64,000 bases of DNA from Sphingobium sp. Its GTDB lineage: Bacteria > Pseudomonadota > Alphaproteobacteria > Sphingomonadales > Sphingomonadaceae. Positions 50,758 to 54,221 of this stretch are shown here, piece by piece. Below the pieces are notes generated by a model. It worked only from the letters and a program-made list of their open reading frames with translations. It had not been told where the DNA came from and ran no database searches. Made by a program: the position numbers and the translations under genes. The stretch spans positions 1 to 64,000 of the forward strand of contig JAHFPV010000013.1 in NCBI GenBank assembly GCA_023266575.1, given 5' to 3'. Positions within the stretch are counted from its first letter, which is position 1. Each line of letters opens with the position of its first letter.

Positions 50758-51711
50758 ATGGCCGCTGCCATCGCGCTGTCGGCGCGCGGGCGCGGGCTTT
50801 CTACTCCCAATCCCAATGTCGGCTGCCTGATCGTCAAGGACGGCCATGTCGTCGGGCGTGGCTGGACGCAAAAGGGTGGCCGCCCTCATGCCGAAGCGCA
50901 GGCGCTGGGGCAGGCGATGGAGCAGGCCCGTGGAGCGACGGCCTATGTGACGCTGGAACCCTGTTTCCATCTGTCGCCGCGCGGGCCGCGCTGTGCCGAC
51001 CTGATGGCGCGTGCCGGGGTGGCGCGGGTAGCGATCGCGCTGCGCGATCCTGATCCGCGCACCGACGGGCAGGGCGCGGCCTGGCTGCGCGAACGCGGCA
51101 TCACGGTGGAAATGGGGCTGCTGGCGGAGGAAGCTGCGCGCGCCATGGCGGGCTTTGTGCTGCGCCAGACGCGCGGGCGGCCGCATGTGACGCTGAAACT
51201 CGGCCTCTCGCTCGACGGGCGAATCGCGCTGGCCGATGGCTCCAGCCGCTGGATCACCGGCCCGGATGCGCGCGCCCATGCCCATGTAGAGCGGGCGCGG
51301 CACGACGCGATAGTGGTGGGCGGCGGTACGCTGCGCGCCGATGCGCCGGGGCTGGATGTGCGGCTGGCTGGGCTGGAGGATCGGTCGCCGCGCCGGATAT
51401 TGCTCAGCCGGGGCGATGCGCCCGATGGCTGGGAACGGATCCGCGCGCCCGACGAGATTGCGGCGCTCGACCGGGTCGATCATCTGCTGGTGGAGGGGGG
51501 CGCGGAAACGGCAGCTGCATTTCTGCGCGCGGGGCTGGTCGACCGGCTGCTGCTTTATCGCGCACCAATCATCATCGGCGCGGGGCTGGCGGGGATCGGC
51601 GACATTGGCCTGATGGACCTGGCCGATGCACATGGCCGCTGGCGGCTGACTGACCAGCGACGGCTGGGGGTCGATCGTCTGGAGGTTTACGAGGCGGTGT
51701 CGAGCGCTTAG
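50758..51711 (+). CDS. ribD: Bifunctional riboflavin deaminase/reductase RibD
   Basis: At least 317 residues. Deaminase zinc motif HAE (GGRPHAEAQAL) and EPC-x9-C in EPCFHLSPRGPRC, then reductase domain VTLKLGLSLDGRIALADGSSRWITG and LLVEGGAETAAAFL. It deaminates then reduces the pyrimidine intermediate of riboflavin synthesis. The conserved opening DRRFMAAAIALSARG extends upstream of the ATG, so translation may start at a CTG at 50719 overlapping the previous stop. Confidence 0.93.
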   Translation: MAAAIALSARGRGLSTPNPNVGCLIVKDGHVVGRGWTQKGGRPHAEAQALGQAMEQARGATAYVTLEPCFHLSPRGPRCADLMARAGVARVAIALRDPDPRTDGQGAAWLRERGITVEMGLLAEEAARAMAGFVLRQTRGRPHVTLKLGLSLDGRIALADGSSRWITGPDARAHAHVERARHDAIVVGGGTLRADAPGLDVRLAGLEDRSPRRILLSRGDAPDGWERIRAPDEIAALDRVDHLLVEGGAETAAAFLRAGLVDRLLLYRAPIIIGAGLAGIGDIGLMDLADAHGRWRLTDQRRLGVDRLEVYEAVSSA

Positions 51712-51727
51712 AGCCACTTAACAATTT

Positions 51728-51789
51728 CCGTTCGGTTCGAGCTTGTCGAGAACAGTGCGCGTCGTTCTCGACAAGCTCGAACCGAACGG
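51728..51789. repeat. Palindromic intergenic repeat, family A copy 5
   Basis: A perfect 26-bp inverted repeat: CCGTTCGGTTCGAGCTTGTC-GAGAAC on the left and its exact complement on the right, with a 10-base loop. It separates ribD and ribE. Confidence 0.88.
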
Positions 51790-51817
51790 ATGTGGTTTAT
51801 AAGGGCCTTTGCGTTTC

Positions 51818-52432
51818 ATGTTCACCGGCATCATCACCGACATCGGCACCATCCGCCAGGCGGAGCAACGCGGCGACCTGCGGCTGGTCATCGGCAGCGG
51901 CTATGACATGGCGTCGGTCGCGATCGGCGCGTCGATCGCCTGTTCGGGGGCGTGCCTGACCGTGGTGGAAAAGGGCGCGGACTGGTTCGCGGTCGATTTG
52001 TCGGCCGAAACCGTCGCGCGCACCGCGCCGGGCCTGTGGGCGCAGGGCGGCCGGCTCAATCTAGAACGCGCGCTCAAGGTCGGCGATGAACTGGGTGGGC
52101 ATATCGTCACTGGCCATGTCGATGGCGTGGGCCATCTGGTGTCGGCCACGCCGCAAGGCGATTCGATCCGGCTGGTCGTTGCCGCGCCTGCCGCGCTGGC
52201 CGCGGCGCTTGCGGCCAAGGGGTCGATCACGCTGGACGGTATTTCGCTGACCGTGAACAGCGTCGAGGATCAACCCGATGGCAGCGTCCATTTCTGCCTG
52301 AACATCATCCCGCATACGGCGGCTGAAACGACGCTGGACGCGCTACCGCAAGGGCGGACCTTCAATCTGGAGATTGATGTCCTCGCGCGCTATCTTGACC
52401 GGATGATGAGTGTTCGCAACCACACAATGTGA
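51818..52432 (+). CDS. ribE: Riboflavin synthase, alpha subunit type
   Basis: 204 residues. MFTGIITDIG is the diagnostic N-terminus; two lumazine-binding barrels follow (IACSGACLTVVEKGADWFAVDLSAET and ITLDGISLTVNSVEDQPDGSVHFCLNIIPHTAAETTL). The enzyme converts two lumazines to riboflavin and pyrimidine. ATG at 51818. There is no SD; TTATAAG lies about 14 bases upstream. Confidence 0.95.
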   Translation: MFTGIITDIGTIRQAEQRGDLRLVIGSGYDMASVAIGASIACSGACLTVVEKGADWFAVDLSAETVARTAPGLWAQGGRLNLERALKVGDELGGHIVTGHVDGVGHLVSATPQGDSIRLVVAAPAALAAALAAKGSITLDGISLTVNSVEDQPDGSVHFCLNIIPHTAAETTLDALPQGRTFNLEIDVLARYLDRMMSVRNHTM

Positions 52433-52468
52433 TTCCCTCTTGATATAATCACACTATAATGTGATATA
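52419..52468 (+). promoter_or_regulatory. ribB promoter with repeated TGTGAT operator half-sites
   Basis: ATCACA-CTATAA-TGTGAT (52448-52465) is a perfect inverted repeat; another TGTGAT lies at 52428-52433, 32 bp upstream of the second, next to ACCACA. Two perfect TATAAT boxes (52444-52449 and 52455-52460) sit in it, one inside the palindrome spacer. A repressor bound here would cover the promoter. It overlaps the ribE stop codon. Confidence 0.6.
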
Positions 52469-52504
52469 CGGCCCATCCCGGCGATCGGGAAGGAGTCGTT
52501 TGCC

Positions 52505-53788
52505 ATGTCCTCTGCCCTTATAGATACCGTCCGCAGCCTCATCACCGATGGCGGCATGTCGCGATCCGGCCTGGCCCGTGCGGCGGGTCTGCACGCCAAT
52601 TCGCTGCGCAAGCTGGGCGAGGGGGACTGGAACCCGACCGCCGACACGCTGGGCAAGCTGGAAGCCTATCTGCTCAAGCGCGAGGGCGGCACTGCGCTCG
52701 CCAGCCCCGAAGAAATTATCAACGAAGCCCGCAACGGCCGCATGTTCATCCTGGTCGATGATGAAGATCGCGAGAATGAAGGCGATCTGGTCATCCCGGC
52801 GCAGATGGCGACCCCCGACGCGATCAATTTCATGGCCACCCATGGCCGGGGCCTCATCTGCCTGGCGCTGACCAAGGACCGGGTCGATAAGTTGGGCCTG
52901 GGCCTGATGAGCCGCAATAACGGCACCCGGCATGAAACCGCTTTCACCGTGTCGATCGAGGCGCGCGAGGGGGTGACCACCGGCATCAGCGCGGCTGACC
53001 GCGCCCGCACCATTTCCGTCGCGATCGACGGGTCGAAGGGCAAGGCGGATATCGTGACGCCCGGCCATGTCTTTCCGCTGGTGGCCAAGGATGGCGGCGT
53101 GCTGGTGCGCACGGGCCATACCGAAGCGGCCGTGGACGTGGCGCGGCTTGCCGGGCTCAACCCGTCTGGCGTCATCTGCGAAGTGATGAAGGATGACGGC
53201 ACGATGGCGCGCCTTGACGACCTCATCCCCTTTGCCGCCAAGCACAAGATGAAGATCGGCACGATCCGCGACCTGATCGCCTATCGCCGCCGCCATGACC
53301 ATATCGTCGAACGCCGCGCGGAATCGGTGTTTCAAAGCCAGTGGGGCGGCGACTGGAAGGCGATGAGTTTCTACAACAAGGCGACCCAGACCGAGCAGCT
53401 TGTGTTGCAGAAGGGGCATGTGACATCCGACCAGCCGACACTGGTTCGGATGCATCAACTATCGTTGCTGGATGATGTTTATGGCGCGATGGGCAAGCGT
53501 TCGGGCCTGTTATCCAAATCTATGGAGATTATTGCGCAGGAAGGAGCGGGCTTGATTGTTGTCCTGACAGTTCCAACGCCCGAAAACTTCGTTACCCGCA
53601 TTCTGGAACATCATGCCGGACGCCCAGGCAGTGGCATGGATGAATTGCGCGACTATGGCGTGGGCGCACAAATCCTTGCCGAACTGGGCGTGCATGACAT
53701 GGTCCTGCTGACCAACAGCCATCACAGTCTGATCGCGCTTGACGGCTATGACCTGGCCGTGGTTGGGCAGCGTCCGATCGAGCTGTAA
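52505..53788 (+). CDS. ribB: HTH-RibB fusion with degenerate GTP cyclohydrolase II domain
   Basis: 427 residues. Residues about 5-58 are a Cro/XRE-like HTH ([22 protein letters not shown]), which is not part of ordinary RibB. Residues 66-265 are dihydroxybutanone phosphate synthase: [16 protein letters not shown] (84-99), [43 protein letters not shown] (185-215). Residues about 270-427 are RibA-like in layout, but the CxxGDxxxSxxCxC zinc site reads [21 protein letters not shown], with no Cys in the whole domain, so GTP cyclohydrolase activity is very unlikely. A strong SD (GGAAGGAG) precedes the ATG. A true RibA must be encoded elsewhere. Confidence 0.92.
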
Positions 53789-53798
53789 AGGATTTATC

Positions 53799-54221
53799 AT
53801 GGCCAAATTCCTGATCGTCGAAGCGCGTTTCTACGACCATCTCAACGACCTGCTGATCGAGGGCGCGAAAGCCGCGCTCGATGACGCCGGGCATAAATAT
53901 GAGGTGGTGACGGTGCCGGGCGCACTGGAAATCCCCGGCGCCATAGCTCTGGCGGCCGAAAGCGGCCGCTATGACGGCTTCATCGCCATCGGCGTGGTGA
54001 TCCGCGGCGAAACCTATCATTTCGAAGTCGTGTCGAACGAAAGCGCGCGCGGCCTGATGGCGCTCAGCATGGACGCGATCGCGATCGGCAACGGCATTTT
54101 GACGGTGGAGAATGAAGCGCAGGCGCTGACTCGCGCCAAGCCGACAGAAAAGGACAAGGGCGGCGAAGCGGCCAAGGCGGCCATCGCCATGCTGGCCCTG
54201 CGCGAAAGGTTCGGGGCGTAA
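53799..54221 (+). CDS. ribH: 6,7-dimethyl-8-ribityllumazine synthase
   Basis: 140 residues. [15 protein letters not shown] and [26 protein letters not shown] are the RibH active-site segments. It joins the RibB butanone product to the pyrimidine. AAAGGA lies 10 bases before the ATG and only 10 bp separate it from the ribB stop. A terminator follows. Confidence 0.95.

Follow-up and report, generated by a model that had tools for sequence, protein, structure and literature searches.

Why should an enzyme of riboflavin synthesis carry a DNA-binding domain at its N-terminus, and on which DNA would such a domain act? The question is raised by the ribB gene of a Sphingobium genome, which lies in the window (the whole stretch of 64,000 nucleotides that was analysed here) within a cluster of riboflavin genes in the order ribD - ribE - ribB - ribH. 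An initial annotation of this DNA had placed a Cro/XRE-like helix-turn-helix (HTH) at about residues 5–58, ahead of the RibB core; the open reading frame is indeed present, and the HTH is supported by Pfam matches that fall below threshold and by conservation (below). The genes of the cluster and the domains of the ribB product are as follows:

50758..51711, + strand: ribD, the first riboflavin gene in the cluster (open reading frame list, Pfam).
51818..52432, + strand: ribE (riboflavin synthase), the 5' neighbour of ribB (open reading frame list, Pfam).
52505..53788, + strand: ribB(X), a fusion of HTH, DHBP synthase and degenerate GCHII-like domains, 427 amino acids (open reading frame list, Pfam).
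52505..52678, + strand: Cro/XRE-type HTH, N-terminal residues 1–58 (sub-threshold Pfam, AlphaFold, Foldseek with weak E-values, conservation).
52709..53284, + strand: DHBP synthase (RibB) catalytic domain, residues 69–260, DDEDRENE intact (PF00926, E 1.1e-83).
53312..53776, + strand: GTP cyclohydrolase II (GCHII)-like domain, residues 270–424, of the RibX type and lacking the zinc cysteines (PF00925, E 1.1e-29).
53799..54221, + strand: ribH (lumazine synthase), the 3' neighbour of ribB, with its ATG at 53799 (open reading frame list, Pfam).

Only 10 bp separate ribB from ribH, so the two are presumably carried on one transcript. Between ribD and ribE there is an inverted repeat (51720–51797; 34 bp, 91% complementary, with a 10-bp loop).

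The RibB core of the window protein matches PF00926 over the full length of the profile (1–191) with 279.9 bits against a cut-off of 26.4, and DDEDRENE (residues 85–92), which we take to be the acidic active-site loop of DHBP synthase, is invariant in 49 of 49 homologues. Seventeen distinct sequences of solved structure match this core at E ≤ 1e-10, the best being 6mnz. Residues 308–347, in the GCHII-like domain, contain no cysteine; the zinc-site stretch of the 49 homologues has none in 46 cases and one in three, and nowhere are all three present, a loss that can also be read from the alignment to 4i14 and 2bz0. A bifunctional RibBA was considered and rejected on these grounds (no homologue among the 49 has all three GCHII zinc cysteines). 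Because these cysteines are absent and a separate, stronger GCHII match is present in the source genome (contig 13, 205 bits in a profile search), the window protein is, as judged from its sequence, of the RibBX type with a DNA-binding head, and not RibBA. We take the name RibBX and its biochemistry, a DHBP synthase with a non-functional GCHII-like domain, to be those known from Shewanella ribBX. The source genome has a second, N-terminally truncated RibBX copy on contig 11 (about 41.8–42.6 kb; L002 1519–2268), which begins inside the DHBP synthase domain, has an N-terminal piece of a GH78 rhamnosidase upstream and a flavin reductase downstream, and looks like a remnant of rearrangement.

The profile search that had been proposed as a check on the HTH finds, in residues 1–72, matches to HTH_3 (E 0.0026, 18.2–18.4 bits against the Pfam cut-off of 23) and HTH_26 (E 0.0041, 17.8–18 bits against 22); both fall under their cut-offs, and routine annotation would probably miss the head for this reason. 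Among 47 aligned N-termini, HTH_3 is matched at E ≤ 0.01 in 15, HTH_31 in 11 and HTH_26 in 10. Structure prediction, another check named at the outset, gives an AlphaFold model of residues 1–66 with a pLDDT of 87.8 (75.6 for the full-length model); DSSP assigns no regular helix in either model at residues 27–45, the expected place of the recognition helix. None of the 324 Foldseek matches in the PDB reaches E ≤ 0.001; the 50 listed have probabilities of 0.72–1.00, TM-scores of 0.48–0.65 and weak E-values (0.08–0.81), and from their titles we take these 50 to be HTH regulators of the XRE/Cro kind. Named among the matches are C.EcoT38IS, C.BclI, C.AhdI, HipB, SinR and the 434 repressor. Small HTH proteins are also among the matches in a viral structure library (best E 0.0037), and the HTH profile run against PDB sequences found nothing convincing (best E 0.075). 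Mean majority identity in the 49 fused homologues is 80–83% in residues 19–52, 52% in residues 1–18, 46% in residues 53–66, 88% in the catalytic core and 62% in the C-terminal X domain; the centre of the HTH is thus conserved nearly as well as the catalytic core and better than the X domain and its own flanks. The residues G28, L29, H30, N32, L34 and R35, and W42, N43, P44 and T45, are invariant in the fused homologues.

RibBX is matched in 294 of 298 genomes of the family Sphingomonadaceae and the HTH-RibBX fusion in 243 of them, a fusion being called when the RibBX match begins at query residue 1–9 and so includes the head. Eighteen genomes matched in a class-wide sample of 385, for which at most 16 candidates were scored per genome; four of these are Sphingomonadaceae and carry the fusion, and among the 14 from other families no matched frame reads as RibB. 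In a tree of 129 rows, a single branch (support 100) separates the 26 that lie outside the family, none of which has the HTH. On this quick tree, which has many weak forks, at least seven changes of the HTH label are required, and two of them are forced by well-supported branches. One gain of the HTH and several losses would be the simplest history, with its polarity unproven.

The candidate target of this head is a palindrome with the consensus TCACATnnnnATGTGA. Its occurrence at 52449–52464, like the loss of the zinc cysteines, goes beyond what the initial annotation had noted, and the region upstream of ribB is laid out in the following way:

52417..52432, no strand assigned: distal operator, 8/12 of consensus, overlapping the end of ribE, 32 bp upstream of the proximal site.
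52440..52468, + strand: promoter-like TTGATA (52440–52445), 17-bp spacer and GATATA (52463–52468), read from the sequence.
52449..52464, no strand assigned: proximal operator TCACACTATAATGTGA, 11/12 of consensus, between the −35- and −10-like elements.

The palindrome accompanies the HTH in the regions examined. When the 450 nt ahead of the RibB core motif were searched, the best match to TCACATnnnnATGTGA in 89 HTH-fused ribB regions was 12 of 12 in 49, 11 in 29, 10 in nine and 9 in two (at least 9 in 89/89, at least 10 in 87/89); in 56 HTH-less regions of the family it was 9 in two, 8 in 14, 7 in 36 and 6 in four, which is within the range of shuffled sequence. Among 4400 controls, made by shuffling HTH-positive regions in dinucleotide blocks, 9 was reached in 9.7%, 10 in 1.3%, 11 in 0.09% and 12 in none; taken alone, the two fused genes at 9 (L137, L151) do not exceed chance. 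The HTH-fused set comprises 79 regions from the 298 family genomes and 10 from separate genome contigs, and the HTH-less set 52 and four, respectively; L155, L173 and L236 are HTH-positive, and the profiles of position, spacing and invariance use 88 of the 89 (L236 is outside). Left out of the count were L229 and L230 (contig ends), L184–L187 (not ribB), duplicates, loci L018–L082 (from outside the family), and L202, L213 and L226 (core motif unmatched; best 7, 8 and 7 of 12). The ACA/TGT cores of the operator are invariant in all 88 profiled regions. Four genomes (G152, G127, G293, G116) provide a control within themselves, in that the HTH copy has the operator and the HTH-less copies do not. 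The exact 16-mer is present in 133 of the 298 family genomes (a reversed control in two), and 71 of the 75 exact sites listed lie no more than 150 bp upstream of an HTH-ribB gene.

The remaining four listed sites (in G191, G098, G156 and G099) are surrounded by open reading frames that share no theme. One exact operator-like site in G098 (L184 1430–1445) lies downstream of ribH, flanked by an aldo-keto-reductase-like open reading frame and one for an 84-amino-acid membrane-type protein without a Pfam match; it may be a further target there, or may have arisen by chance. TCACA-N6-TGTGA occurs in two places in the source genome: the ribB site, with 11/12, and a perfect 12/12 site on contig 15, inside a coding open reading frame that reads as a response regulator. 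With this one further site in a coding frame and no theme around the four sites above, a wider regulon is not supported. We also rejected a CRP-type site, which is TGTGA-N6-TCACA; the arms here stand in the reverse order.

A generic sigma-70 scan found no promoter, and we derive the −35/−10 reading from a comparison of the sequences that precede 88 of the genes. TTG stands 7–9 nt ahead of the proximal site in 54 of the 88 (background about 2.1% per position), and the site is followed by T in 53 and A in 68; the proximal operator therefore appears to fill the spacer between −35 and −10, the position of a repressor. A second site of at least 8/12 is present at a spacing of 29–33 bp in 59/88, against 1.5 per control bin. 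Since the proximal site ends no more than 15 nt from the assigned ATG in 75 of the 88, the transcripts probably have little or no leader; the leader of the window ribB is longer and contains AAGGAG at 52490.

From these comparisons we consider it highly likely that HTH-RibBX is an autorepressor of ribB-ribH that acts through TCACATnnnnATGTGA by means of a captured, phage Cro-like head. The protein, as a dimer or a dimer of dimers, would bind TCACATnnnnATGTGA in its own promoter and would also contact a second site, roughly three turns of the helix further upstream; the occupied proximal site between −35 and −10 would block RNA polymerase, and ribB-ribH would be repressed as the enzyme accumulates. 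Binding, dimerisation, repression and the co-transcription of ribH are all things that we infer here. The enzyme very probably turns off its own gene in most of the sphingomonads examined. The initial annotation had suggested a repressor whose catalytic domains would serve as its sensor of the pathway. The self-regulating part of this proposal is strongly supported by the operator, which is placed over the promoter and occurs together with the HTH, and by the prophage HTH described below; the position over the promoter suggests repression rather than activation, and it is from position that this direction is read. As to the sensing, plain concentration-dependent autorepression fits the data just as well.

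A repressor gated by a metabolite, in which the X domain or the active site would bind a flavin or an intermediate (FMN, ribulose-5-phosphate and DHBP are candidates), shift the affinity for the operator and so replace a riboswitch, is a possibility that we take seriously without thinking it probable. FMN riboswitches control riboflavin genes in many bacteria; the initial annotation had seen none, and there is none (RF00050) in the window or, by the genome search it had proposed, anywhere in the source genome, which favours such gating. So does the fact that all 49 homologues retain the X domain but not its three zinc cysteines, and Shewanella RibX reportedly regulates the RibB domain. The HTH-less relatives, however, have a C-terminal domain of equal extent and no operator, which argues that at least there it has another role.

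Autorepression by a captured head leaves the question of where the head was captured. Prophage DNA in genome G015 (L181, the same as IMG/VR L243) encodes a stand-alone 68-amino-acid HTH protein that is 47% identical to the RibB head, and this HTH is also found on an IMG/VR viral contig; a search of the family with it matches 244 of the 298 genomes, the extra one being this stand-alone gene. It is divergent from a gene whose product matches phrog_4 'transcriptional repressor' (E 8.6e-17) and can be read as a repressor of the CI/S24 type. A ribB-type operator pair lies at about −28 and −60 from the stand-alone gene (11/12 each), and some 2.8 kb away the prophage has a second pair (L243 162–208; 12/12 and 11/12). 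Both RibBX copies in G015 lack the HTH and the operator; their best scores are 7 and 9 of 12, the latter at a distance of 492 nt. The second TCACAT pair of L243 precedes an 83-amino-acid open reading frame (214–465) of uncertain gene status. Two other stand-alone homologues have palindromes of their own: that of Pseudanabaena phage Pan3 has GCATATTCTGATATGC at −29, and the alphaproteobacterial stand-alone HTH L248, a possible natural specificity variant, has TCGCAT-type palindromes, imperfect at −26/−59 and perfect at −75. No clear palindrome was found at that position in six of the nine short stand-alone homologues (L249, L255, L262 and those of phages Pan5, CASP1 and 1N2-2).

Capture of a Cro-like gene together with its operator would be the simplest origin. 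A fuller version, in which an ancestor of the Sphingomonadaceae took up a phage cro-like gene and operator and the resulting enzyme-repressor reads flavin through its X domain in place of a riboswitch, is somewhat doubtful. We think it unlikely that the phage instead acquired both its HTH and its operator from the ribB of a host; only one prophage with the exact ribB type of operator was found, as such a transfer might lead one to expect, but its HTH sits as a Cro would, divergent from CI, and the phage relative in Pan3 has another palindrome.

The two sites with their fixed spacing, and the presence of C.EcoT38IS, C.BclI and C.AhdI among the nearest solved folds, bring to mind a two-phase switch like that of the restriction-modification C proteins, in which the distal site would activate and the proximal site repress the same promoter. 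C-protein systems usually have their stronger site in the distal position, whereas here the proximal site matches better in 65 of 88 genes (the two are equal in eight, and the distal is better in 15), and the distal site of the window is in effect a right half-site, AATGTGAT at 52426–52433; such a switch is distinctly unlikely. That the palindrome belongs to some other regulator, with the HTH a structural or enzyme-tuning extension, would suit the sub-threshold Pfam scores but is very improbable, given that the operator is absent from the 56 HTH-less genes and that a prophage HTH without RibB has the same operator.

The autorepressor proposed here has parallels in several known systems. RbkR, an archaeal repressor in which an HTH is joined to riboflavin kinase, likewise fuses a DNA-binding domain to an enzyme of the riboflavin pathway, but its enzyme is a CTP-dependent kinase and archaeal; an RbkR-like regulator, the presence of which was another check named in the initial annotation, was rejected for the source genome, where CTP-dependent riboflavin kinase (PF01982) is absent. 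RibBX proteins share with the window protein both enzyme-derived domains, their order and the loss of the zinc cysteines, and the window protein differs in adding the N-terminal HTH and a candidate cognate operator; 6mnz aligns from its residue 7, which leaves no space for an N-terminal HTH. BirA, PutA and NadR are metabolic enzymes that double as repressors, as this protein may, although they have other folds, pathways and operators, and ligand gating is known for them. Phage Cro-type repressors and C proteins have a small XRE-like fold, which the head probably shares, and palindromes over their own promoters, but here the HTH is fused to a metabolic enzyme. No description of an HTH-fused RibB was found among the listed titles and abstract openings of open-licence PubMed Central papers; a word search of a 2025 review of riboflavin regulation (PMC12542839) finds no 'helix-turn-helix', 'DNA-binding' or 'RibBX', and the regulators that bind a ribA promoter in Wolbachia are separate proteins (PMC3518464). 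Enzyme-repressor fusions are already known as a kind, and it is HTH-RibBX, its operator and the phage link that appear to be new.

If it is correct, this reading would add an enzyme-repressor fusion for riboflavin synthesis, and with it a new route of control, to the Gram-negative bacteria, in a form that is found in most of a large family and yet lies under annotation cut-offs. The TCACAT-, TCGCAT- and GCATAT-type relatives make recognition of the operator by the HTH directly testable, and there are natural lineages that lack both the domain and the operator. Autorepression may be the way in which a genome that has no FMN riboswitch restrains ribB, and, if true, it would mean that a phage switch, protein and operator together, was domesticated when it was joined to a metabolic enzyme.
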